From: Sorangiineae bacterium NIC37A_2
Lineage (GTDB): Bacteria > Myxococcota_A > Polyangia > Polyangiales > Polyangiaceae
Length of the DNA stretch: 64,000 nt
Assembly: GCA_002085155.1 (NCBI GenBank)
Contig: NASX01000027.1
Coordinates: forward strand, 1-64,000
Reading direction: 5' to 3'
A program made the position numbers and the translations under genes. The notes under the pieces were generated by a model. The model worked only from the letters and a program-made list of their open reading frames with translations, had not been told where the DNA came from and ran no database searches. Position 1 is the stretch's first letter; each line of letters begins with the position of its first letter. This document shows positions 26,251-47,964 of the stretch, one piece after another.

Positions 26251-26274
26251 TTGGTCGCCGGGCCATCCGATCCG

Positions 26275-29200
26275 ATGAACCAGCCCGTTGCGCTCGTAGC
26301 TCCCGCTCGCGCCCATTTTTCCTCCCTCGATGAGGACGCCGTCTGGGACGACCCAGAGCACCTGCGGGGGGAGATCTTACCCGAAGTCCTGCTCTTGGAG
26401 CATGCGGAGCGCCTCGGTGAAGTGCACCTCCGACTCGAGACGGAGCGCGGGCGAGCGAGCCCTTTGCGCCGTCGATTTCGCAAAGTGCGCGCGAGTATCC
26501 AGGAGGCTTATCAGGTCTTAGCGGAAGGAGCGGAGAGGCGACGAGATCCCTCTCCTGCCGAACTTTGGTTGCTCGACAACGGGCACGTCGTGGAAGGGCA
26601 GCTCCGCGAGATCGAAGAAGATCTGCCTTGGGGTTATCTTGTCCAGCTGCCGCGCATGAGCAGCGGCAAGATGCGCGGCTATCCTCTCGTCTACGCGCTT
26701 TGCCTCGACTACCTCCGCTACACGGATTTCCACGTCGACTTCGAGACCCTCGAGCGCTTCGTGGCCGCTTATCAGAAGCAGCGAGCGCTCAAGATCGGGG
26801 AGCTCTGGGCGATCCCGATCATGCTCAGGCTCGGGCTTGTGATCGCGGTCTCTGCCCTCGCTACCTCAGAGGCTCAGGCGACAGACCGCGACCAAGCGGA
26901 CCAATGGGCGCGCCGATTGCTCGGTGAGAAGGGTCCCCTCGACAGAGCTCGACCCGCGCGCGGCGAAGAGCCTCAAGAAGCGCTCGCCGAGCTCAAGAAG
27001 ACGGCTCGCAAGCAAGCGCCCAGCGATGCCTTCCTCGTGACCTTATTGCGCAGGCTACGTGAGCACGACGAGGCGCCCCCCGAAGCTCTGGCTTGGATCA
27101 ACGAACAGGCCGAGAAGATGGGAACCTCTTCGGAGGCCCTTACGCGCCGTCATCACCTGAAACAGGCGGCCGCGCAGGTCTCCGTCGGCAGTGCGATCAC
27201 GAGCATGCGCGCGATCAACACCCTCGATTGGAGCGTGTTCTTCGACAGCACAAGCTTGGTCGAGGAGACTTTGCGCCGCGACCCGAGCGGCGTCTATTCC
27301 AAGATGGACGCAGTCTCGCGCGATCGGTACCGCCATGGGATCGAACGCCTCGCGCGCGCGAGCAAACAGAGTGAGCTGCGCGTCGCCGAGACCGCTCTCC
27401 ATTTGGCGATCCTCGGCCAGGGCACTCGAGAAGACTATCGCGCGCACGTCGGCTACTACCTCAAGGACGACGGTCAAACAGAGCTCTGGCGTGATCTAAA
27501 CTACCGCCCGCGTCTCACTCACCGCGTCGAGCGATTCAGGAGCAAGCACCCGTCTTTGCTCTACTTGGGCAATATCACGCTCATCACGGCCGCGCTCTCT
27601 GCTCTCGCCTGGGCCGCGCTCGCAAGCGCAGAAGCTCCCCTTTGGCTCAGGGCCATCCTTTATCCGGGCATGCTCTTGGCTTCGAGTGAGATCGCCGTCG
27701 CCGTCGTCAACGCAGCGGTCGTTGCGCTGGTGTCGCCGCGCATTTTACCGAAGTTCGAGTTCGAAGACGGCGTTCCAGAGAGCTGTCGAACGATGGTGGT
27801 GGTGCCGACGCTCCTCGGCAGTGAAGCTGAGGTGAGAAGCTTGCTCGATGAGCTTCTCGTCAAGAGTCTCGCGAACCCAGACGAGCACCTCAGCTTTGCA
27901 CTTCTGACGGACTTCCCCGATGCCGACGTCGCAGAGACGGAGGAAGACAGTCGGCTCCTCGAGCTGGTGCAAGCGGGCATCGAAGAGCTCAACAGTGACC
28001 AAACTCGACCTCGCTTCTTCCTCTTCCACCGCTCACGCATCTGGGACGAACAGGAGCAGCGTTATCTCGGCTGGGAGCGAAAACGCGGAAAACTCCATGA
28101 GTTCAACCAGCTGCTCCGCGGAAAAAACGATACGACTTTTTCAATCGTCACCGCGCCGGAAGGACTGCTGCACGAAGTCAAATACGTCATCACCCTCGAT
28201 ACGGATACGGAGCTCCCTCCCGGGGTCGCTCGTCGGCTCGTCGCGACGATTGCACATCCTCTGAATCGACCCATTTTCAATGCACAGGCGGGCCGCGTCA
28301 CGCGCGGTCACGCCATGCTCCAGCCGCGCGTCGGAACCTCACCGATGAGCGCGAGGCGCTCCATCTACGCACGCCTCGCAGCCGGGCCGCCAGGCATCGA
28401 CCCTTATACGACCGCGGTCTCGGACGTGTACCAGGACTTTTTCGGCGAAGGCTCTTTTGTCGGTAAGGGCATCTACGACGTCGACGCGTTCAGCGCCGTC
28501 ATGGCCGGACGGGTGCCGGAGAACCAGCTCCTCAGTCATGACCTCTTTGAGAGCATCTACGCCCGCGCGGCTCTCGTCTCCGACGTCGAGGTCCTCGACG
28601 AACAACCGGCTTCCTACGCGGTCGCCGCCGGCCGGCAGCATCGTTGGATCCGCGGCGATTGGCAGCTCTTGCCTTGGCTCTTCCCTCGGACACCGGCTGA
28701 AGAAGGCACGCGGCGCTTCGATTTCCGCGCCTTCGACACATGGCGCGTGGTCGACAACCTGCGCCGCAGCCTCCTGCCACCCTCTCTCGTCCTATTCATG
28801 GCTGCGACCTGGGCCATGGGCTTCGAAACAGCCTGCGTCAGCACGCTGCTTCTGGTCTCCGTCTTCTGGGTCCCCGTATTCGGTCGCCTCGTGTTCGCGT
28901 TTGCTCGAGCCGATTCCCAGCTCGACTGGCTCGGAGGACTCGGCGGAGATCTGAAGAGCAACGCCAAGCAGGCATGGCTCTCGCTCACGTTCCTCCTCGA
29001 CCAGGCCTTCGTCAGCCTTGACGCAATTGCCCGCGCTCTCTACCGACAATTTTGGAGTCGCCGCCATTTGCTCGAGTGGGTGAGCATGCGCGACGCCGCG
29101 AGCCGCGCCCCGAGCAGCGTGCTCCGCGTTCCCCGCTTGCTCGGTTCGGCGTTCCTTGCCCTCGGAGCGATAGCGCTCTTGATTGCGACCGATGCGCCCG

Positions 29201-32200
29201 CGACTCCCTTAGCTCTCCCGGTGCTCTCCTTGTGGGCGCTTGCGCCTTGGATCGCCATTTGGGTGAGTCGGATCGAACCGGAGCGCGCCGTCGAGCCCTG
29301 GGGAGAAGCAGAGGCGCTCGTCTTTCGCCGCATTGCCCGCAAGACCTGGCGCTTCTTTGAGCGTTTTGTCGGCGAACTTGACCACGATCTTCCCCCCGAC
29401 AACTTCCAAGAACAGCCACGGGGCGTCATCGCCCACCGGACCTCTCCCACCAACATCGGTCTCTATCTGCTCTCGGTCGCCGCCGCGCGCGACCTCGGCT
29501 TCATCACGCTGCAAAGCGCCGTGGGGCGCCTTCATCGGACCCTTTTTACCCTCGAGAAACTCGAGAAACGAGAAGGGCACATCTTCAATTGGTACGACAC
29601 AAGAACGCTCGAGCCCCTCGAGCCCCGCTACGTCTCCACCGTCGACAGCGGGAATCTCGCCGGATACCTGATGACGCTCGCGGAGATCTGTCGGGAAGCG
29701 AAGAACACTCCCCTCGTCTCCGAACGTCTCTTTCTCGCCACGCTCGACGCCCTCTATCTCGCCAGGGAAGCTCATCGAGAACACCGATCGAGGGCCGACT
29801 CGAGCTCCCTCGTGAGGCAGCTGATCGAGCTCATCGAGTCCATCGAGGCGAGACGCACAAGCGACGAGCCTTTTGTGGGTCTGGTTTTCGAGGCGGCGCG
29901 TGAGAGCGAGAGACTCCTGTCCGGATGGCAAAGGGAGCAGAGCTCGCCTTCCGCACGGTCATGGATCGAAGCGGCTCGCGCTGGGCTTCGGGAGGCGCTC
30001 GAAACCTGGACCGAGTTTTCTCCGCATCTCGTGTGGCTTGAAGCTGCTGGTTTTTTCTCGAACAAGAGGCCACAAGAGTGGTCCGGGGTGCAAGAGCTCC
30101 TCGACCAGGCGCGGCGCCCCGCTCGCTTTCTCGAGGTTTCGGACGAGCTCAAAGAACACATCACCGCGCTGGCTCCGAACCTCGCCAGCAAGCCATCGCT
30201 CAAAGAGCTCACAAGCGCGCTCAGCCAGGCCCAGCGGAAGACCGAAGAGCTCCTACAAGAGCTCGATTCGATCGCTGCGCGTTCTGACGAGCTGGTCGGG
30301 GCGATGGACTTCAGCTTCCTCTACGACGAAGAACGCTCGCTTTTCTCCATCGGCTACAACGTGAGCAGCGCGCGCCTCGACAACTCTCACTACGATCTCC
30401 TCGCATCCGAGGCTCGGCTCGCCAGCCTGGTCGCAATTGCCAAGGGCGAGGTTCCCGTCAAACATTGGTTCCGCCTCGGGCGCTTGCGCGCCAAGTTCGC
30501 GAGCGCCCGAGGCCTGCTCTCCTGGAGCGGCTCGATGTTCGAGTACCTGATGCCGCTGCTCGTGACGCGGAGCTACCCGGACACGCTCCTCGATCAAACC
30601 TACCGATCTGTGATCGAACGCCAGATCGAGTACGCACGCGAGTTTGGGGTGCCCTTTGGCATCTCTGAGGCCGCCTACAACGTCATGGATCTCGGTATGA
30701 ACTATCAATACCGGGCCTTCGGCGTGCCAGGACTCGGCCTGAAGCCTGGCTTAGGAGAGGACCTCGTCATCGCGCCCTATGCGACGGCTCTCTCAGCTCT
30801 GGTCCGAGCCCAAGCCGCCGCGCGAAACTTCGAAGCGCTCGCCGCCGCCGGCCTCGAAGGGGAGTACGGCTTCTACGAGTCTGCCGACTATACGAAGGCG
30901 CGGCTCCCGCCGACCCGCAAGATGGTCGTGGTCAAAGCCTACATGGCTCACCACCAAGGCATGACGCTCGTCGCGCTCTCCAACTTGTTGACGGACTTCT
31001 CGATGCAGCGCCGCTTCCACGCGGACGCCCGCATCAAGGCCTGCGCGCTCTTGCTCGAAGAGCGCATTCCTGTGCGGGCCGGGGTCGTCGAGCCTGAGAC
31101 GACCCGCACTGCTTCGCCCCTGGCCCAAACCTTCGAGCAAGAAGTCACCGAGCACCTCGATCTTGCGCAGGCTCGCACAAGCCCCCCCCGCGGACACCTC
31201 CTAGGCCAAGGCGATCTTTCGTCCTGGATCTCCGCGGGAGGCGAAGGTTTTTTGACCTGGCGCGGCATCGACGTGCAGCGTTTCCGAGAAGAAGCGAGCC
31301 TCTCTTGTGGCGGGATCTTGCTCTACTTCCAGACCCCGAAGAGGAAACCCTGGTCGAGCGGCTATATGCCCACGCGCTCGGAGCCCAGTCACTACGACGC
31401 GATTTTTTCGGTGGACAAAGTGGAGCTCTCTCGCCGCGACGGTCCCGTCGAGACGCTCACGGAAATCACGCTGTCTCCCGAGCATCCCGCCGAGATCCGT
31501 CGTGTCACGCTCACGAGTCACGCAAGCTCCCCTCTCCAGGTCCGCATCACGAGCTTCACAGAACTCTCGCTCACCCCAAGGAGCGCCGACGTCGCTCACC
31601 CGGCGTTTCAAAAGATGTTCTTGGAGCTCGAGTCCCTGCCCAATCGTCCGGTCCTCATCGCCCACCGTAAGCGACGCTCGAACCACGATCCGCACGTGTG
31701 GATGGCTCAGATGCTGGTGGGCCTCGACCCGAAGATCGAGGTCCACCTCGGTACCTCCCGCGCCGCGTTCTTAGGGAGGAATGGCGACATCTGCGCTCCC
31801 CGGGGCCTCTCCGATGACAGCTGGCGGGATCAGCCGGGGACCCTCGATCCCGCGAGCATCCTTCAAGCCGACATCGAGCTCGACGCGGGAGGGCACGTGC
31901 GTTTCTCGCTCATCACCCTGCTCGCGGAGACCAAAGAGGCGCTCCTCGCCGACGTCGAACACTTCTTCGACACCCACAGCGTGGCGCGCGCCTTCGAGTT
32001 CGCGTGGGCTGATGCGCGCGTCGACCTCCGGCACCTCGGCATCACCTCGTCCAAAGCTCATCGCTATCAGCGTCTCTTGTCTGCCGTGCTCTTCCCTCAG
32101 GCAGGGCTCCGCGAAAACAACAGTCCTCCCATCAGCGTGCGGGGTCGGGATGCGCTTTGGTCTCAAGGTATCTCAGGAGACCTCCCCATCGTTCTTCTGC

Positions 32201-35070
32201 GGCTCGACGCTCCCGAGTTTACGGACCTTTGCCGCGACCTCTTGCTCGCTCACGAGTACTGGCGCCTGCACGGCATGGCCACAGATTTGGTCATCCTGAA
32301 CGAAGAAGCGGCAAGTTACCTGCAGCCGGTCCAGGACGCGGTCTTGAATCTGATCCGCTCCACCCCAGCAGAAGGCCACGTCGATCAGCGTGGCGGCGTC
32401 TTCGTTCGAAGAAGCGCGCTCATCAATGAAGAAGACCTCAAGTTGCTCGCGACCGCCGCCCGCGTCGTCCTGAGCGCTTCGAAGGGCTCCCTTGCGCAGC
32501 AACTTCGGAGCCTCACTCTCCACTCTCAGAACGAAGCCGGCCGCCCGCACCCGATCAGAGCTCCCCTCTCCCTTCCGAGGTCGTCAGCCCAGGACGAAAG
32601 GGGTGGACAAACTTTCCGAGCTCACGAGCGCGACGGCCAAAGCGAACGCGACCAATTGCTCTTCGAGAACTCGATCGGAGGCTTCGACCAAGAGACCGGC
32701 GCCTACCGGATGCGGATCGGGAAAGGCCAAAGGCCGCCTCAGCCCTGGAGCAACGTGATCGCCGGACCAAACTTCGGCACCCTTGTGACCGAATCGGGAT
32801 CGAGCTTCACCTGGTACCAAAACAGCCAGAAGAACCGGCTCACCCCGTGGTCCAACGACCCCACCCTCGATCCGTCCGGCGAGCTCTTCTTTCTCCGCGA
32901 TCTGGAGTCAGGCGCGTTCCACAGTCTGACGCCTTCCCCCGCCGGTGGCGACGCCATCTACGATGTTGTCCACGAGCCCGGTGTGACGACGTTCCGCCAC
33001 ACGCGCGAGGGATTGAGCGAAGAGCTCAGCGTCGGCGTCGACCCGAACGACCCGATCAAAGTCTGGCGCGTGCGCCTCGCGAACCATTCGTCCCGTGTTC
33101 GAAGACTCCGGGTCTACGCCTATGCCGAGTGGGTGCTCGGGCCGAATCGCGAGCAGCTCCGCGTCTCGACCATCACCTACCTTCGTCCCGATCTTCGGGC
33201 GCTCCTGGCGAGGAACCCGCTGTCGCCGTTCCCTAAATCTTGGGCCTTCTTGGCGTCGACGGAAGAGGTTCGCTCCATGACCGCCGATCGCGGCGAGTTT
33301 TTCGGCCCGTTTGGATCGCGCGCCGCGCCCGTCGGCCTCTTCGGAAGCAGGCTCTCCGGTCGCTCCGGAGCCGGACTCGATCCTGCCGCCGCCCTAGAGC
33401 TCGAGCTGACCCTGGCCCCTGGTGATGAGAGGGAATTCGCCTTCGCTCTTGGCGCAGGCGACGACGAGCGACAAGCCCATGAGCTCATCGCTCGCTACAA
33501 TCAGCGGAGCGAAGCTTCAGCGGTCATCGAACGGAGCCGGGACCAGTTCCGCTCACTCTTCGGGCGCATGAAGGTCCGCTCTCCTGATCCGAGCTTCGAC
33601 GTCATGGTCAATCACTGGCTACCGTACCAGGTGCTCAGCTGTCGCTTTTGGGGACGTTCTGCCTTTTTCCAATCGGGCGGCGCCTACGGATTCCGAGACC
33701 AGCTCCAGGACTCCATGGCTCTCCTTCAGCTCCGACCTGATCTCGCCAAGAAACACATTCTGCTCGCGGCTTCCCGCCAATTCCTCGAAGGAGACGTCCA
33801 GCACTGGTGGCATCCGGACACCGGCGAAGGTGTCCGCACCCATTGCTCCGATGATCTCGTTTGGCTCCCTTGGGCTGCGGTGGAGTACGTCACGACCACC
33901 GGTGATCACCTCGTCCTCGACGAGCCTGTTGGGTTTCTTCAGGAGCGTCGACTCGACCCCGGTCAGGACGATCTCTACAGCGTTCCTCCTGCCGCGGCCG
34001 AATCTGCGCCCTTGTATGAACATTGTGTGCGAGCCCTCGAAGCAGCGGTCACGCGCGGCCCGCGAGGGCTCCCACTCATGCGCGCCGGGGACTGGAACGA
34101 CGGCATGAATCGCGTCGGCGAAGGCTTCCGCGGGGAGAGCGTATGGCTCGGCTGGTTCCTCGCCCACACCCTCGCTCGTTTCGCTCAGGTCGCCGAAGAA
34201 CGCGGTGACCGCGCCCGGGCTCACTTTTGCTGGAGCGAGGCAGAGCGCATCGCTCGTGCAATTGATGAGAGCGCCTGGGACGGACAGTGGTACCAGCGAG
34301 CCAGCTTTGACGACGGTACGCCGATCGGGTCCCACGAAAGGAGCGAGTGTCGCATTGACGCCATCGCCCAATCTTGGGCCGTGATCGCGGGCGTCGGACG
34401 CGCCGATCGCGCCCGGCGCGCCCTCGACTCCTCGCTCGAGCACCTGTGGCTCCGGGAGGAGAAGATGATGCTGCTGCTCACACCGCCTTTCACGAGCGGC
34501 GAGCCCGACCCCGGCTACATCGCGACCTATCCGCCGGGAGTGCGCGAAAACGGAGGCCAGTATAGCCACGGCGTGCTCTGGACGGTGCTCGCCCTCCTCC
34601 TCGAACGCCGGAGCGAGGAGGCCTATCGACTCTTCCAAGACCTGAACCCGATCTCCCATACGAGCACGTCCGCCGAGGTCGAAAAGTACCAGGTCGAACC
34701 CTACGTTCTCGCCGCAGACGTCTACGCGGAACCGCGCCACCTCGGGCGGGGCGGGTGGACTTGGTACACCGGCTCAGCCTCCTGGATGTATCGCATCGCC
34801 GTCGAGTGGATCTTGGGATTACGGCGCCGAGGGGATGAAATCTTCCTCGACCCATGCCTCCCGCCCAGTTGGCCTCAGCTCGAGGTCGACTACACGACGG
34901 AAAGTGGCGGGACACTCCAGATTCGCCTCGACAATCCCCGGGGCTCGACGCACGGAGTAGCTCGCCTCTGGGTCAATGATGAACCGGCCCTGAGCTCGAG
35001 CATCGCTCTTCCGAAAGCCGGAGAGCGCACGCGCGTCCGCCTGGAGCTCGGTCCTCTCGGGGACGCGTGA
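26275..35070 (+). CDS. Cyclic beta-1,2-glucan synthase (NdvB/ChvB-like; glycosyltransferase plus GH94-like phosphorylase domains)
   Basis: About 2931 aa; TLDTDTELPPGVARRLV, HDLFESIYARAALVSDVEVLDEQPASYAVAAGRQHRWIRGDWQLLPWLF, C-terminal FQSGGAYGFRDQLQDSMALL...WWHPDTGEGVRTHCSDDLVWLPWAAVEYV...MRAGDWNDGMNRVG. Confidence 0.93.
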   Translation: MNQPVALVAPARAHFSSLDEDAVWDDPEHLRGEILPEVLLLEHAERLGEVHLRLETERGRASPLRRRFRKVRASIQEAYQVLAEGAERRRDPSPAELWLLDNGHVVEGQLREIEEDLPWGYLVQLPRMSSGKMRGYPLVYALCLDYLRYTDFHVDFETLERFVAAYQKQRALKIGELWAIPIMLRLGLVIAVSALATSEAQATDRDQADQWARRLLGEKGPLDRARPARGEEPQEALAELKKTARKQAPSDAFLVTLLRRLREHDEAPPEALAWINEQAEKMGTSSEALTRRHHLKQAAAQVSVGSAITSMRAINTLDWSVFFDSTSLVEETLRRDPSGVYSKMDAVSRDRYRHGIERLARASKQSELRVAETALHLAILGQGTREDYRAHVGYYLKDDGQTELWRDLNYRPRLTHRVERFRSKHPSLLYLGNITLITAALSALAWAALASAEAPLWLRAILYPGMLLASSEIAVAVVNAAVVALVSPRILPKFEFEDGVPESCRTMVVVPTLLGSEAEVRSLLDELLVKSLANPDEHLSFALLTDFPDADVAETEEDSRLLELVQAGIEELNSDQTRPRFFLFHRSRIWDEQEQRYLGWERKRGKLHEFNQLLRGKNDTTFSIVTAPEGLLHEVKYVITLDTDTELPPGVARRLVATIAHPLNRPIFNAQAGRVTRGHAMLQPRVGTSPMSARRSIYARLAAGPPGIDPYTTAVSDVYQDFFGEGSFVGKGIYDVDAFSAVMAGRVPENQLLSHDLFESIYARAALVSDVEVLDEQPASYAVAAGRQHRWIRGDWQLLPWLFPRTPAEEGTRRFDFRAFDTWRVVDNLRRSLLPPSLVLFMAATWAMGFETACVSTLLLVSVFWVPVFGRLVFAFARADSQLDWLGGLGGDLKSNAKQAWLSLTFLLDQAFVSLDAIARALYRQFWSRRHLLEWVSMRDAASRAPSSVLRVPRLLGSAFLALGAIALLIATDAPATPLALPVLSLWALAPWIAIWVSRIEPERAVEPWGEAEALVFRRIARKTWRFFERFVGELDHDLPPDNFQEQPRGVIAHRTSPTNIGLYLLSVAAARDLGFITLQSAVGRLHRTLFTLEKLEKREGHIFNWYDTRTLEPLEPRYVSTVDSGNLAGYLMTLAEICREAKNTPLVSERLFLATLDALYLAREAHREHRSRADSSSLVRQLIELIESIEARRTSDEPFVGLVFEAARESERLLSGWQREQSSPSARSWIEAARAGLREALETWTEFSPHLVWLEAAGFFSNKRPQEWSGVQELLDQARRPARFLEVSDELKEHITALAPNLASKPSLKELTSALSQAQRKTEELLQELDSIAARSDELVGAMDFSFLYDEERSLFSIGYNVSSARLDNSHYDLLASEARLASLVAIAKGEVPVKHWFRLGRLRAKFASARGLLSWSGSMFEYLMPLLVTRSYPDTLLDQTYRSVIERQIEYAREFGVPFGISEAAYNVMDLGMNYQYRAFGVPGLGLKPGLGEDLVIAPYATALSALVRAQAAARNFEALAAAGLEGEYGFYESADYTKARLPPTRKMVVVKAYMAHHQGMTLVALSNLLTDFSMQRRFHADARIKACALLLEERIPVRAGVVEPETTRTASPLAQTFEQEVTEHLDLAQARTSPPRGHLLGQGDLSSWISAGGEGFLTWRGIDVQRFREEASLSCGGILLYFQTPKRKPWSSGYMPTRSEPSHYDAIFSVDKVELSRRDGPVETLTEITLSPEHPAEIRRVTLTSHASSPLQVRITSFTELSLTPRSADVAHPAFQKMFLELESLPNRPVLIAHRKRRSNHDPHVWMAQMLVGLDPKIEVHLGTSRAAFLGRNGDICAPRGLSDDSWRDQPGTLDPASILQADIELDAGGHVRFSLITLLAETKEALLADVEHFFDTHSVARAFEFAWADARVDLRHLGITSSKAHRYQRLLSAVLFPQAGLRENNSPPISVRGRDALWSQGISGDLPIVLLRLDAPEFTDLCRDLLLAHEYWRLHGMATDLVILNEEAASYLQPVQDAVLNLIRSTPAEGHVDQRGGVFVRRSALINEEDLKLLATAARVVLSASKGSLAQQLRSLTLHSQNEAGRPHPIRAPLSLPRSSAQDERGGQTFRAHERDGQSERDQLLFENSIGGFDQETGAYRMRIGKGQRPPQPWSNVIAGPNFGTLVTESGSSFTWYQNSQKNRLTPWSNDPTLDPSGELFFLRDLESGAFHSLTPSPAGGDAIYDVVHEPGVTTFRHTREGLSEELSVGVDPNDPIKVWRVRLANHSSRVRRLRVYAYAEWVLGPNREQLRVSTITYLRPDLRALLARNPLSPFPKSWAFLASTEEVRSMTADRGEFFGPFGSRAAPVGLFGSRLSGRSGAGLDPAAALELELTLAPGDEREFAFALGAGDDERQAHELIARYNQRSEASAVIERSRDQFRSLFGRMKVRSPDPSFDVMVNHWLPYQVLSCRFWGRSAFFQSGGAYGFRDQLQDSMALLQLRPDLAKKHILLAASRQFLEGDVQHWWHPDTGEGVRTHCSDDLVWLPWAAVEYVTTTGDHLVLDEPVGFLQERRLDPGQDDLYSVPPAAAESAPLYEHCVRALEAAVTRGPRGLPLMRAGDWNDGMNRVGEGFRGESVWLGWFLAHTLARFAQVAEERGDRARAHFCWSEAERIARAIDESAWDGQWYQRASFDDGTPIGSHERSECRIDAIAQSWAVIAGVGRADRARRALDSSLEHLWLREEKMMLLLTPPFTSGEPDPGYIATYPPGVRENGGQYSHGVLWTVLALLLERRSEEAYRLFQDLNPISHTSTSAEVEKYQVEPYVLAADVYAEPRHLGRGGWTWYTGSASWMYRIAVEWILGLRRRGDEIFLDPCLPPSWPQLEVDYTTESGGTLQIRLDNPRGSTHGVARLWVNDEPALSSSIALPKAGERTRVRLELGPLGDA

Positions 35071-38347: not shown

Positions 38348-39442
38348 ATGACCTGCGGCTCGCCGAGATCCCCTGGCGGACAAAAGACCTTTCGAAAAAA
38401 GCCCACCCGGGACACTCTCTCGCCCGAAGCTGTGCAGACGAGGGTCATCATCGTAGGCGTTGGAGGCATCGGCGGAGTGCTGGCCGCAAACCTCATCGGA
38501 GAGCCGATCGACCTCACGGTCGCGACCACCAACGCCGAGATCCGCGCCGCGTTCTTGAGCGGTACGGCGCGCTTCGAGGGCGAGAACCTGCCGGCGCTTC
38601 CGAAACAGAACGTCCTGTCGCGCGCCGACGAGGCGAGTGAGCCCTTTGACATCGCGTTCATCGCGGTGCAGCCCAACGCAATCGACGACGTAGCCAAGAG
38701 CCTCTTGCCCGTGCTCCGGCCGAATTCGGAGGTCATTACGCTGTCGAACGGACTCTGCGATGAGCGAGTGGCGGGTGTGGTCGGAATCGAGCGAGCCCGC
38801 GGCGCGGTCGTCATGTGGGGAGCCCGCATGCCGCGACCCGCCGAGTACATACGGACCTCCTCCGGCGGCTTTCTGGTCGGCGTGGTGGACCCGGAGGGGG
38901 GCGCCCTCAGCCTCGCTGCCGAGCGACTCCTCGAAAAGGTCGGACCGGTGCGCCGGACCCAAAACCTGCTCGGCGCTCGCTTCTCGAAGCTCGCGCTCAA
39001 CTCGGCGATCTCCACCCTAGGTACCCTGGGAGGAAAAACCCTCGGCGAGATGATGCTCGCTCGCAATTGTCGCAAGGCTGCCCTCCTCATCATCTCCGAG
39101 GCGGTGCGCGTGGCGCACGCGGGCGGGACGGAGCTCGAGCGAGTGAACGCCTTGAACCTCGAATGGCTGGCTCGAGGCCGCGGCCCCCTGCGTCACGCCG
39201 CGCTGATCGCCGTCGGTCTCCGCTACCGGAGGCTCCGCTCCTCCATGCTCGCCGCCGTGGAGCGCGGGCGAGCGCCGGCTGTCGACCATCTGAACGGTGA
39301 GATCGTGCGCCGCGGTCATGAGGTTGGTGTCAGCGCCAGCGTCAACCAACGAGCCATTGACCTGGTTTGGCAGATCGCCCGCGGCGAACGCCAGGCAGGC
39401 GACGCAACCATCGCCGCACTCTTGCAAGGGAGCCAGGCGTGA
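38348..39442 (+). CDS. 2-dehydropantoate 2-reductase family protein
   Basis: VIIVGVGGIGGVLAANLIGEPIDLTVAT; LGARFSKLALNSAISTLGTLGGKTLGEMM; typical ApbA/PanE architecture. Confidence 0.85.
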   Translation: MTCGSPRSPGGQKTFRKKPTRDTLSPEAVQTRVIIVGVGGIGGVLAANLIGEPIDLTVATTNAEIRAAFLSGTARFEGENLPALPKQNVLSRADEASEPFDIAFIAVQPNAIDDVAKSLLPVLRPNSEVITLSNGLCDERVAGVVGIERARGAVVMWGARMPRPAEYIRTSSGGFLVGVVDPEGGALSLAAERLLEKVGPVRRTQNLLGARFSKLALNSAISTLGTLGGKTLGEMMLARNCRKAALLIISEAVRVAHAGGTELERVNALNLEWLARGRGPLRHAALIAVGLRYRRLRSSMLAAVERGRAPAVDHLNGEIVRRGHEVGVSASVNQRAIDLVWQIARGERQAGDATIAALLQGSQA

Positions 39443-40032
39443 GCCGACTCCTCCCTCGGCGCAGCTTCCTTGCCTCTCCGCTGCTCGTCGCCTGTTCGAA
39501 GAAGCGGGTGGCCGAACTCCCAGTGCTCGGCGCGCTGCCTGAGCTTCCCCTCACCGACCAAGAGGGCCAAGTGCGGAGACTTCAGGATTATCGAGGCAAG
39601 TTGCTCCTCGTCGCGTTCTTCTTCACTCGCTGCCCGAGCGTCTGCCCACGGCTCATCGCGCGGATGCAGGAAATGGAGCGGGCCCTCGCCCAAGGCTCGC
39701 GCCCCTTCCATCTCGCCGCGATCAGCGTCGATCCCGAACACGACACGCCCGAGGTCCTCCGCGGCTACGCGAGCGCTCGGGGCATCCGTGCCGAGTCCTT
39801 CAGTCTGCTCACCGGTGACCACAGCCAAATCGCCCGCGCCGCCGAGGAGAACTTCAAGATCGGCCTGGAGGGCAGCTACGATCCCGACAAGCCGGGGCTC
39901 GGCATCACCCACGGCTCCCACGTCATCCTGGTGGACCGTGAGTCGCGCATCCGCGCCTTCGTTCGGACCTTCGACGACGACGCAGTCCGGGCGCTGCTCG
40001 GGTACGTGGAAGCCCTCGAAAGCCCCTCTTGA
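39439..40032 (+). CDS. SCO1/SenC family copper chaperone-like protein
   Basis: GTG start overlapping previous stop; LPLTDQEGQVRRLQDYRGKLLLVAFFFTRCPSVCPRLIARMQEME (CxxxC) and ISVDPEHDTPEVLRGYA. Confidence 0.9.
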   Translation: MSRLLPRRSFLASPLLVACSKKRVAELPVLGALPELPLTDQEGQVRRLQDYRGKLLLVAFFFTRCPSVCPRLIARMQEMERALAQGSRPFHLAAISVDPEHDTPEVLRGYASARGIRAESFSLLTGDHSQIARAAEENFKIGLEGSYDPDKPGLGITHGSHVILVDRESRIRAFVRTFDDDAVRALLGYVEALESPS

Positions 40033-40064: not shown

Positions 40065-40949
40065 ATGCGCCGGCTCGCCCTGCTTCTTTCCCTCGTCACA
40101 ACGGCCACCGCTTGCGTCCCCGAGGCGCCCCCCAAGACAGCTGAAACCAAAGCGGAAGAGCCCAACGCCGAGGTCAAAGACGTTCGTCCTCGCGATCGCG
40201 AACCCGTGCTCGACGAAGTCCTGGAAGCGCACCTGATCGCGGAAAGCGTCGACGGCGTGATCGCGATCCTGGACACGAACGACGGCAAGCTCCGCTGCAG
40301 CAACCTCGAGCGCTGCCAGAAGCAGTACGTTCCCGCCTCGACCTTCAAGATCGCGCACACCTTGGCTGCCCTCGAGGAGGGTGTGCTCGAGAGCGCCGAT
40401 TCGCCGATGAAGTGGGACGGGAAGGAGTACACCGTCGAGGCCTGGAACCAGGATCATACGCTGAAGAGCGCGATGGAGGTTTCCTGCGCTCCCTGCTTCC
40501 AGTCAGTCGCGCGCACCCTCGGCGAAGAAAGGGAGCGCGCCTGGCTCGAGAAGCTCGAATACGGCAACAAGGACGGAAGTGGCCCCCTCGACCTGTTCTG
40601 GCTCGAAGGTGGCGGCCTTCGCATTAGTCCGATCGAGCAGATCGATTTCTTGTATCGCCTCGATCGTGGCGAGCTGCCCGTGAAAGACAGCTCGCGCCAG
40701 ACGACCCTCGACGTGCTCGTGAAGAGCGAGACCGACACGTACACCCTCCGCGCCAAGACGGGTGCCGCCTGTGATCCGACGACGGGCTGGTACGTTGGGT
40801 ATCTCGAATCTGGAGCTCGTCGCGTGTACATCGCTGTCGCTCTCGAGGGGAAGCGCGAAGACGCTGACGCCGCCGTCGAGTTGAACGCCGCTCGTCCCCT
40901 CGTCGCCTTGCGCGCTCTGCGTGATGTGACTGGTCTACGCATTGACTAA
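40065..40949 (+). CDS. Class D (OXA-type) beta-lactamase-like lipoprotein
   Basis: MRRLALLLSLVTTATACVPEAP lipobox-like; YVPASTFKIAHTLAALE (STFK), SCAPCFQ, EYGNKDGSG (YGN), LRAKTGAA (KTG). Confidence 0.85.
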   Translation: MRRLALLLSLVTTATACVPEAPPKTAETKAEEPNAEVKDVRPRDREPVLDEVLEAHLIAESVDGVIAILDTNDGKLRCSNLERCQKQYVPASTFKIAHTLAALEEGVLESADSPMKWDGKEYTVEAWNQDHTLKSAMEVSCAPCFQSVARTLGEERERAWLEKLEYGNKDGSGPLDLFWLEGGGLRISPIEQIDFLYRLDRGELPVKDSSRQTTLDVLVKSETDTYTLRAKTGAACDPTTGWYVGYLESGARRVYIAVALEGKREDADAAVELNAARPLVALRALRDVTGLRID

Positions 40950-41597: not shown

Positions 41598-42935
41598 ATG
41601 GCAGTTTTCAAGAAACTCGGATTCTTTGGAGCGCCGCTCCTCGTCATGGCAACCGGCGCGCTCGCTACCGCTGCGTGTGACAAGGAATCGCTTCCTGGCG
41701 GCGAGGGTCTTTGCGGCCCCTGCGGTGACGTCGCTACCGGTGACATCGGTATCTCCGGCAACGCAAAGCTCGACGGCTTCTTCGCGGCAGTTGCGACCCT
41801 GAACAAGTCGGTCGTCACGATCAACGGTGATTTCGAGCTCGGCCTGAAGAACCTCGAAGCAGCGTTCGGTCTCGAGGCTGAAGGCAGCATCTCGGCACGC
41901 GTCGACGCGCTCGTCGCGGCCATCCAGGCGGAGATCGAGGCCAACGTCGGAGCCAACGCAGCGCTCAACGTGGACATCCAGCCCGCTCAGTGCTCGGCGA
42001 ACGTCAACGTCGCCGTCGAAGCTCAGGCGCAGTGTGAGGTGAAGGGTGGCTGTGAGGTCGATCCGGGTAAGGTCGACGTCGAGTGCTCGGGAAGCTGCAC
42101 CGGAAGCTGCTCGGGTGAGTGCTCTGGCGAAGTTCAGTGCAAGGTCGAAGCTCCGTCGATCGAATGCTCCGGTACCTGCGAAGGTACCTGCGAGGTCGAC
42201 ATCGAGGCTGAGTGCTCGGGCACCTGCAAGGGCGAGTGCGAGGGTGAGTGCTCGGTGAAGAACGCCGACGGTTCCTGCAACGGCTCCTGCAGCGGTACCT
42301 GTAAGGGTTCCTGCAGCGCGTCCGCTTCCGGGAAGTGCGAAGGCAAGTGCACCGGCTCTTGTACGGCTGACCCCGGCGGCGCGAGCTGCGAGGGTGAGGT
42401 CAAGTGCGAAGGCACGTGCGAAGGTAGCTGCGAAGGCGGCTGCACCGGCGAGGTCGTGCCCCCGTCGGCCGAGTGCGACGCGTCGGCCGATTGCCAGGCG
42501 CAGGCGAAGGCTCAGGCCAGCGCCAGCCTCGAGTGCACGCCTCCCCAGCTCACGATCGGCTTCGCTGCTAAGGCAGACCTCGACGCAAGCGCTCGCGCTT
42601 CTTTCGAGGCCAAGATCGGTGCTCTCAAGGTGAACGCACCCGTCATGCTCAGCGCCTTCACCAAGTACTCCGCGCTGTTTGACGGCAAGGTGAACGGTGA
42701 AGTTGTGTTCAAGCCGTCGCCCGTGGCTTCGGTCACTGCTGGGCTCGAAGGCGTCGTGGAGGCTGGCATCGAAGGCGACCTCTTCGCTGACATCCCGCTC
42801 GGCCGCATCGATTGCGTCATCCCCGCGATGGAAAGCTCGATCTCGCTCCTCAGCAAGATGACGAGCGAGGCTTCGGCTAACATCTCGGCCCAGGCCAAGT
42901 TCGTGACCGCCTTCGCTGGTGGCTTCAAGAGCTAA
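41598..42935 (+). CDS. Secreted/lipoprotein-like cysteine-rich (CxGx)n repeat protein
   Basis: 445 aa, 34 Cys by hand count; ECSGSCTGSCSGECSGEVQC, ECSGTCKGECEGECS, CNGSCSGTCKGSCS, CEGTCEGSCEGGC; N-terminal signal peptide with ATAAC. Confidence 0.85.
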   Translation: MAVFKKLGFFGAPLLVMATGALATAACDKESLPGGEGLCGPCGDVATGDIGISGNAKLDGFFAAVATLNKSVVTINGDFELGLKNLEAAFGLEAEGSISARVDALVAAIQAEIEANVGANAALNVDIQPAQCSANVNVAVEAQAQCEVKGGCEVDPGKVDVECSGSCTGSCSGECSGEVQCKVEAPSIECSGTCEGTCEVDIEAECSGTCKGECEGECSVKNADGSCNGSCSGTCKGSCSASASGKCEGKCTGSCTADPGGASCEGEVKCEGTCEGSCEGGCTGEVVPPSAECDASADCQAQAKAQASASLECTPPQLTIGFAAKADLDASARASFEAKIGALKVNAPVMLSAFTKYSALFDGKVNGEVVFKPSPVASVTAGLEGVVEAGIEGDLFADIPLGRIDCVIPAMESSISLLSKMTSEASANISAQAKFVTAFAGGFKS

Positions 42936-42955
42936 TCTCGGTTAACCATACGCGC

Positions 42956-43993
42956 ATGGCTTCGAACCCATCGCGCGACGCCCGACGGCTGCCCATGTGT
43001 TTGGCAGCCGTCGGCGTTTTGTTCTCCGTCTGGCTCTGGGTGATCCACGTTCGAACTTACGTGGCTCCCCGCTCCGACAGCGTCTGTTCCATCAATGACA
43101 CGTTTGATTGCACGCGTGTCGCTGCATCAAAAACCTCAGTCCTCTTGGGCCTGCCGCTCGCTGCCTGGGGTGTGGTCGCCTTTGGCGCGCTCCTGTTCCT
43201 GATTTGGCGTCGCTCGAAGCTCGCGCTTCCCATTGCAGGCGTCATGGCTCTCGGGGCCGTCGTCCTGACCCTCATCCAGATCTTTCAGATCGGCTCGCTG
43301 TGCTTCGTCTGTGAAGGAGCCCATGCTGCCTCGCTCGCTCTCGCCTTCTTTGTCTTCAAGGATCGGGCCGAGTACACGGCGGACTGGAAGGACGAAACGA
43401 CCCTCAAGTACGGCGTGCTCCTGCCCGCCTCCGTGCTCCTCTCGCTGTTCATGTTCTTGCCCCGCTATTGGGGCGCGTTCAGCTACAAGGCGCCCCCTCC
43501 CTTCCCCACGGGGAAAACCGAGGAAGGCTTCCCCTGGATCGGCGCAGAGAACCCGAGCCTCACCATCCACGAGTTCACCGACTACCGCTGTCCTCATTGC
43601 GCCTACGGGTCCGCCCGAAGCCTGCGCAAACTCGCGCAACGCAGTGACGTGCGCATCGTCCGACGTCAGCACCCTCGCCTGTACTGCACCGTGCCCGCGG
43701 CCTGCGAAGCGGTGCGTGTCGCTTATTGCGCCGAGGCTCAAGGGAAATTCTGGCAAGCGGACCGCTATCTTTTCGAGAATCTCGAGCCTCGAAAGAGCCT
43801 CGACCTGCCCAAGATTGCTCGCGATCTCAAGCTCGACGAGGGAGAGCTCGAACGCTGCTTTCACGATCCCAAGACGCAGGAGCGAGCGAACGCGGAAGCT
43901 CAAGCCGCTTTCAAGTACAAGATCATCGATACCCCCGGGTACATGATCGACGGCAAGCGCATCAAGCTCGAAGAGCTCGAAGAGATCTTCTGA
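42956..43993 (+). CDS. VKOR (vitamin K epoxide reductase-like) membrane domain fused to DsbA-like thioredoxin domain
   Basis: 345 aa; VCSINDTFDCTRVAASKTSVLLGLPLAAWG (loop Cys pair and Ser), GSLCFVCEGAH (CxxC), then HEFTDYRCPHCAYG (DsbA CPHC) and DTPGYMIDGKRI cis-Pro loop. Confidence 0.92.
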   Translation: MASNPSRDARRLPMCLAAVGVLFSVWLWVIHVRTYVAPRSDSVCSINDTFDCTRVAASKTSVLLGLPLAAWGVVAFGALLFLIWRRSKLALPIAGVMALGAVVLTLIQIFQIGSLCFVCEGAHAASLALAFFVFKDRAEYTADWKDETTLKYGVLLPASVLLSLFMFLPRYWGAFSYKAPPPFPTGKTEEGFPWIGAENPSLTIHEFTDYRCPHCAYGSARSLRKLAQRSDVRIVRRQHPRLYCTVPAACEAVRVAYCAEAQGKFWQADRYLFENLEPRKSLDLPKIARDLKLDEGELERCFHDPKTQERANAEAQAAFKYKIIDTPGYMIDGKRIKLEELEEIF

Positions 43994-46506: not shown

Positions 46507-47964
46507 ATGCGCCAAAGTCTCCCCATGAAATCTGGCCGACTGAGCTCGAGAGCGGTCGCTCTTCTCCTCTCTCTCGTCGTTGCGTCGCCCGCGCTCGCAC
46601 AACAATTCGAATCCGAGGTCTCGGCGGAGCGCTTCGATCCCGCCCCCGGCACCAACAATTTCCTCATCACGCGCGGCGCGCGCATGGATGGCAATTTGCG
46701 CTACACGGTAGGCCTTTATGGCGCCTACGGGAACGAGTCGATCATCGTCCGGACGCGCACCGTGGATGCAGCGAACTCGGTCCGTTACGCCGTCGTCGAG
46801 AATATGCTCACCGGCAGCCTGGTCGGGAGCCTCGTCATCATCCCGGAGCTCCAGGTCGGCCTGAAAGTTCCAGTCACGTGGGTGAGTGGAGCGGGTGTGC
46901 CCGGAGCCGTCGGCCAAGGGCCCCTGCGTGAGCCGGTGAACACAGTCGGGCTCGGCGACGTCCAGCTCGAAGTCAAAGGCCGCTTCTATGGTGACGCGAA
47001 TTCGCCACTGGCGCTCGGCGCTTACGCCTTCTTCGGGGCCCCGACGGGCAATCTGACGGCCCCCGGAACGTACATCGGCAACGCCTCCGTGGCGGGCGGC
47101 GGCGCCGTCATCGTCGACTACAAGACCGGTCCCCTCGGGATCGCGGTGAACCTCGGCGGCGTCTACCGCGAGGAGGCTCAGGTCGGCGTCACGATGCTCG
47201 GCGGCGAGGCGCGCTACAGCTTGGCCGCCTCCTTCGAGGCGACCCCGATCCTCAGGATCATCGGCGACGTCTTTGGAAGCACGAACTTCTCTTCAGGTCC
47301 CGCGACCTCGCTCGAAGGCGACCTCGGCATCCAAATCACCCCCATCAGCTCCAAGATCTCGGTGACGGCCGGTGGCGGCGCCGGCATTCTGCGCGGCATC
47401 GGAACTCCGGCCGCCCGCGGTCTGATCGGGATCATCTACGACTCGAAGGTCCTCGATCGCGACGGCGATCACATCACCGACGATCGGGATGCCTGCCCGG
47501 ACGATCCGGAAGATCTCGACGGGTTCGAGGACGGCGACGGCTGTCCCGATCTCGATAACGACGCCGACGGCATCCCCGACAGCGTCGACAAATGCCCCAA
47601 CGCCGCCGAGGATCTCGACGGATTCGAGGACAAAGATGGCTGCCCTGATCCCGACAATGACGGCGACGGCATCCCCGACGTCAACGACCATTGCCCACTC
47701 GAGCCCGAAACCAAAAATGGATTCGACGACGCCGATGGTTGTCCGGACGTCAAAGACACCGACGGTGACGGCGTGCCCGATGAGCTCGACAAGTGCCCCG
47801 AAGAGCCTGAGGACACCGATGGCTTCGAGGACACGGACGGCTGCCCCGATCCCGACAACGACGGCGACGGCATTCCTGACACGGAAGACGAGTGCAGCGA
47901 GCTCCCCGAAGACGGCAAGGGTAAGGGCGCTGAAAAGACAGACGGTTGCCCGATCGACGCGTGA
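46507..47964 (+). CDS. Outer-membrane barrel with C-terminal thrombospondin type 3-like calcium-binding repeats
   Basis: 485 aa; DRDGDHITDDRDACPDDPEDLDGFEDGDGCPDLDNDADGIPDSVDKCPN and further repeats; no OmpA peptidoglycan-binding domain follows. Confidence 0.85.
   Translation: MRQSLPMKSGRLSSRAVALLLSLVVASPALAQQFESEVSAERFDPAPGTNNFLITRGARMDGNLRYTVGLYGAYGNESIIVRTRTVDAANSVRYAVVENMLTGSLVGSLVIIPELQVGLKVPVTWVSGAGVPGAVGQGPLREPVNTVGLGDVQLEVKGRFYGDANSPLALGAYAFFGAPTGNLTAPGTYIGNASVAGGGAVIVDYKTGPLGIAVNLGGVYREEAQVGVTMLGGEARYSLAASFEATPILRIIGDVFGSTNFSSGPATSLEGDLGIQITPISSKISVTAGGGAGILRGIGTPAARGLIGIIYDSKVLDRDGDHITDDRDACPDDPEDLDGFEDGDGCPDLDNDADGIPDSVDKCPNAAEDLDGFEDKDGCPDPDNDGDGIPDVNDHCPLEPETKNGFDDADGCPDVKDTDGDGVPDELDKCPEEPEDTDGFEDTDGCPDPDNDGDGIPDTEDECSELPEDGKGKGAEKTDGCPIDA

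Follow-up and report, generated by a model that had tools for sequence, protein, structure and literature searches.

Does a gene for an exported protein with 34 cysteines, followed directly by a gene for a putative disulfide-forming enzyme, mark a client and the oxidase that is kept for it? The question is raised by a locus of Sorangiineae bacterium NIC37A_2, lying in a stretch of 64,000 nucleotides of contig NASX01000027.1 that was analysed as a whole (hereafter, the window). The original prediction for this locus was of a substrate and a dedicated oxidase that would together build a heavily disulfide-bonded or metal-binding structure at the cell surface.

The CxGx protein and its VKOR-DsbA neighbour

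The features of the locus are as follows.

41598..42935, + strand: gene P0001, encoding the CxGx protein (445 aa, 34 Cys)
41598..41678, + strand: signal peptide and lipobox-like Cys27 (TAA followed by C), a Cys in 23/23 aligned relatives
41712..41723, + strand: CGPC motif (Cys39, Cys42) just past the predicted anchor, both Cys kept in 23/23
41964..42566, + strand: central CxGx domain, residues 123-323 (~200 residues), strand-rich in low-confidence models
42567..42932, + strand: C-terminal helical region with an invariant Cys406, from model helices and the conservation of Cys406
42956..43993, + strand: gene P0002, encoding the VKOR-DsbA fusion (345 aa), from profile matches
42995..43354, + strand: VKOR domain, with loop Cys44/Cys52 and active site Cys116/Cys119 (PF07884; conserved)
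43529..43972, + strand: DsbA-like domain, with CPHC at 212-215, Pro327 and four further Cys (PF13462, PF01323; conserved)

The open reading frame of P0001, its cysteine count and the three CxGx arrays described in the original prediction are all present in the translation. The protein contains 16 CxxxC steps, every one of them CxGxC, whereas 2,000 shufflings of the mature protein gave 2.6 on average and never more than 9. Across the whole protein, in an alignment of 23 relatives, cysteines are conserved at a mean of 99% and other residues at 43%. The predicted export signal was likewise recovered, but the description of a simple signal-peptide protein needs correction: P0001 is most likely a lipoprotein, lipid-anchored through Cys27, because its relatives keep a lipobox Cys after the signal peptide. 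As judged by a simple script and no dedicated predictor, the lipoboxes are clearer in most relatives (LTGC, LQGC, AGGC), and the window's own TAAC is weak. Helices are predicted to come after the N-terminal CGPC motif, and those of the C-terminal region to span residues 330-361, 375-391 and 401-440, mostly with moderate confidence.

The stop codon of P0001 and the ATG of P0002 are separated by 20 bases, precisely the spacing that had been noted. In P0002, profile matches were found to VKOR (PF07884, 2.8e-18, residues 14-133), Thioredoxin_4 (PF13462, 1.5e-16, residues 192-339) and DSBA (PF01323, 2.2e-10). The catalytic features named in the original prediction are kept in 19 aligned sequences: in the VKOR domain the C44/C52 loop pair and C116-F-V-C119, and in the DsbA-like domain C212-P-H-C215 and Pro327 at the cis-Pro position. 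S58 of the VKOR domain and four further cysteines of the DsbA-like domain (C244, C250, C258 and C301) are likewise conserved. The enzyme therefore has the active-site CxxC, loop Cys pair and conserved Ser of the VKOR family, together with the thioredoxin-fold domain, CPxC and cis-Pro of DsbA-like proteins. A scan for promoters and terminators returned nothing, and the RNA fold of the P0001-P0002 junction was unremarkable.

The window also encodes several other proteins. Upstream of the CxGx gene, positions 40065-40949 encode a class D beta-lactamase-like protein with STFK, YGN and KTG motifs (NCBIfam, 1.6e-62; 210.9 bits, below the cut-off of 250), and positions 39367-40032 an SCO1/SenC family protein with a CxxxC motif. 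Further away, a 2,939-aa open reading frame (26251-35070) carries GH94 supersandwich and catalytic domains and a glycoamylase-like domain, an arrangement that we take to resemble cyclic beta-glucan synthases. Finally, a thrombospondin type 3 repeat protein is encoded at 46507-47964, and as a homologue was found near the CxGx gene at four other loci (L001, L003, L004 and L046), this CxGx subfamily may have here another neighbour that is conserved.

Conservation of the gene pair

Relatives of P0002 were sought in 318 genomes of the class, with genes called mechanically across the surveyed loci. The P0002 clade comprises 21 VKOR-DsbA loci (support 100/98), and 16 of these have an adjoining CxGx gene on the same strand. 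Three families are represented: the window's own with four linked loci, f29 with nine and f26 with three. A CxGx gene was found near none of 42 other VKOR-DsbA loci, 35 of which had flanks of 1.5 kb or more in both directions, and near none of 20 control loci encoding other VKORs. The adjacency that the original prediction expected elsewhere thus exists, within one enzyme clade. The CxGx gene lies upstream at 15 of the 16 linked loci and downstream in the remaining genome, G284, while two genomes (G157 and G173) have one CxGx gene on each side of the VKOR-DsbA gene. Gaps between an upstream CxGx gene and the enzyme gene measure 130 bp or less, with overlaps solely where open reading frame starts were called mechanically. 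L172 counts as linked, its upstream open reading frame at the contig edge being a CxGx C-terminus; L190 is Cys-rich at a lower threshold but contains no CxGx steps. In G284, the VKOR-DsbA gene has on its upstream side, overlapping or directly adjoining it, a different Cys-rich, lipoprotein-like open reading frame (L169, 5344-6468; 375 aa as called, with 41 Cys).

The linked enzymes are only ~35-43% identical to P0002, and the linkage is therefore old. The five loci of the clade that lack a CxGx neighbour belong to four genomes of a single genus (g141), plus one other locus (L170); the g141 genomes retain a nuclease-like gene that other f29 genomes have close to the pair.

From the side of the CxGx proteins, a different picture emerges. 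Relatives occur in 56 of the 59 nearest genomes, and among 64 CxGx loci, 42 of them flanked by 1.5 kb or more in each direction, a VKOR-DsbA gene was near just two besides the window (G028 and G008). An early impression from these 59 genomes that the linkage is rare was overturned by the enzyme-first search, yet a VKOR-DsbA neighbour is not a general feature of CxGx genes, most of which have no VKOR nearby. In the CxGx tree, one clade holds most of the paired proteins (14 of 18 rows); another contains the protein of G008 as well as those encoded by the second CxGx gene in each of two clusters, and a very divergent f26 pair stands apart. Because paired CxGx proteins are scattered over several places in this tree, membership of the CxGx clade is a poorer guide to linkage than membership of the enzyme clade. 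It is possible that the linkage arose once and was later lost in places, in which event the 16 loci do not represent independent events.

Other arrangements of CxGx genes were also encountered. Four tandem CxGx genes in G010 (L066, 4391-11006) suggest a local family expansion, and a gene for a TlpA/ResA-like thioredoxin lipoprotein is found near five CxGx loci (L048, L050, L060, L072 and L085), possibly as another redox partner or merely as conserved synteny. The CxGx family is near-universal in these bacteria and apparently unstudied, as a search of open-licence papers found no literature on the family or on its pairing with VKOR-DsbA.

Disulfides, metals and the fold of the repeat

Whether the cysteines are oxidized or bind metal was addressed through their number. 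Past the lipobox Cys, members of the main clade have 31, 33, 35 or 41 cysteines, odd in 23 of 23, and members of a second clade have an odd number in 26 of 27; in the remaining set the count is mostly even (25 of 35). Eighteen proteins could not be scored, and relatedness weakens parity as a statistic. Nevertheless, within the two clades the number changes in even steps, as would be predicted for paired cysteines, and together with the near-complete conservation of the cysteines this fixed parity favours disulfides over metal. The leftover odd cysteine may remain unpaired, may bridge two molecules or, should Cys27 be unlipidated, may form a disulfide with it. A reduced metal-binding or thiol-buffer protein, with P0002 adjacent for some other reason, would be in keeping with the very high Cys density and with the one consistently odd cysteine of the two clades. 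It would sit poorly with export, with a disulfide-forming enzyme next door and with the even steps in Cys number, and P0001 has neither an enrichment in His nor a match to any known metal-binding family; we regard such a role as improbable. Of the two structures originally offered, the disulfide-bonded one is accordingly the better supported and the metal-binding one is disfavoured.

Structure prediction of P0001, performed on the whole protein and on the Cys domain separately with five-sequence alignments, gave low confidence both times, and a search of solved structures found no relative. Among 1,553 CxxxC steps in 103 collected CxGx open reading frames, the middle residue is Gly or Ala in 97%, and its neighbours are for the most part Glu, Ser, Thr, Asp or Lys. 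This alternation of Cys and Gly would fit short strands with both residues on one face, although the quality of the models is too low to reveal such an arrangement. The central domain of P0001 also gives a marginal match to bactofilin (PF04519; 28.3 bits against a cut-off of 27.9), and the CxGx relatives tested scored 32.1, 19.1 and not at all. The domain could possibly share the beta-solenoid pattern of bactofilins, but P0001 is exported and Cys-rich, and the match may merely reflect the Gly-spaced pattern; it is best treated as a lead towards a beta-solenoid and nothing further.

A further match is to the NCBIfam repeat TIGR04114 (tSAM_targ_Cxxx), with which P0001 shares a four-residue Cys period and which it matches at 31.3 bits (cut-off 20), with one relative at 25 bits. 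The name of this model suggests that P0001 could be a CXXX-repeat target of radical-SAM peptide maturases; TIGR04114, TIGR04115 and TIGR04119 are presumably parts of one system, an assumption drawn from the model names and general knowledge. However, P0001 is no peptide but a large, lipoprotein-like protein, and of five more CxGx proteins tested, four are missed by the model. Moreover, the maturase models TIGR04115 and TIGR04119 stayed below cut-off in sets of 59 and 30 genomes and gave no match whatever in the window's genome, while the one radical-SAM protein met within the window is ThiC. A maturase target is thus very improbable.

A TraA-type Cys-rich repeat was also considered and rejected, since TIGR04201 is absent from the NCBIfam results for P0001 at E-values of 1 or below; models for PA14 and MYXO-CTERM gave no match to P0001 either. 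The TraA-type repeat forms a Cys-rich region of an exported myxobacterial protein for which disulfides and a stalk have been proposed (PMC3325183), and P0001, although it too is exported and Cys-rich, has a repeat of another type.

A specialised or a general oxidase

How exclusive P0002 might be can be judged from the other VKORs present. Most paired genomes encode two to four, and the one to three additional VKORs would fit a specialised role for the paired enzyme. The window's genome (G000) and G173 have one only, the paired enzyme itself, and no match to DsbB was obtained in 25 genomes. No second VKOR was found in G000, the assembly of which is 98% complete with gaps that could hide one; seven other weak matches to P0002 occur there, none with a VKOR domain, and one of them covers the DsbA-like part alone. 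With no other VKOR found and no DsbB in G000, P0002 therefore probably serves other clients too. The original prediction had named a sole VKOR/DsbA in the genome with many unrelated substrates, coupled with an absence of conserved adjacency, as evidence against itself; two genomes have a sole VKOR, and the adjacency is conserved elsewhere. The word "dedicated" survives in part, being favoured by a specific, old adjacency and by the other VKORs of most paired genomes; in the two genomes in which P0002 or its counterpart stands alone, it cannot be taken as exclusive.

It is conceivable that P0002 is simply a general disulfide oxidase, with the CxGx protein one client among many and the linkage held by descent rather than by functional preference. 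The sole VKORs of G000 and G173, the many CxGx proteins that manage without a linked VKOR, and the persistence of the enzyme without a CxGx neighbour in genus g141 would all be expected under such a scheme. It accounts less readily for a linkage held across three families despite the low identity of the enzymes, for the other VKORs of most paired genomes, or for the other VKOR-DsbA types, which are never CxGx-linked, and we consider it rather unlikely, though well ahead of the metal and maturase alternatives.

Since the adjacency is clade-specific and most CxGx proteins have no VKOR nearby, P0002 would seem to be a specialised isoform that partners some CxGx proteins and is not needed by all, and the long-kept adjacency suggests a specialised enzyme and its predicted main client. 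We therefore favour, at a probability of a little under 60%, a co-inherited unit in which an exported CxGx lipoprotein held by disulfides is accompanied by a specialised VKOR-DsbA isoform, the gene pair keeping the enzyme next to its most demanding client. P0001 would be exported and anchored by lipid through Cys27, and its central domain, folding once beyond the cytoplasm, would form a compact comb or solenoid that is rich in strands and held by many disulfides. P0002, in the inner membrane, would oxidize the client's thiols through its DsbA domain, with electrons passing via the VKOR cysteines to quinone. The enzyme would be kept beside P0001 because at least 30 cysteines set in low-complexity sequence have to be oxidized quickly and correctly, and where it is the sole VKOR, as in the window's genome, it would also act as a general oxidase. 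Several observations weigh against this co-inherited unit: the many CxGx proteins without a nearby VKOR indicate that the enzyme is unnecessary for the fold as such, five of the 21 clade loci are unlinked, two genomes rely on a single VKOR, and the linkage may be a single inherited event. A broader and more tentative idea, possible but doubtful, is that CxGx lipoproteins are a widespread, undescribed family forming a disulfide-stitched comb in the myxobacterial envelope, in which one branch has its own VKOR-DsbA oxidase and one cysteine that is consistently left unpaired, perhaps in the CGPC motif close to the anchor, would cross-link the protein or lend it redox activity.

Fusions of VKOR to thioredoxin-like domains are an already known type in bacteria and plants (PMC4555120), and P0002 has the same domain order and catalytic cysteines; its clade differs from the other VKOR-DsbA fusions of the same class in being CxGx-linked. 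The nearest functional parallel to the pair would appear to be DsbL/DsbI of enterobacteria, specialist oxidase partners that share an operon with their client, arylsulfate sulfotransferase (PMC3526765), and thus form a dedicated oxidase-client pair documented in the literature. As in that system, the oxidase gene is kept beside a putative client gene, at 16 of 21 clade loci and at none of the controls. Unlike that system, the oxidase is a single VKOR-DsbA fusion, the putative client is a repeat protein with ~33 cysteines, and the preference of the one for the other is presumed from gene order. If the parallel is true, a VKOR-DsbA equivalent with a client of ~33 conserved cysteines would reveal by what means proteins with extreme numbers of disulfides are folded in bacteria that lack DsbB.
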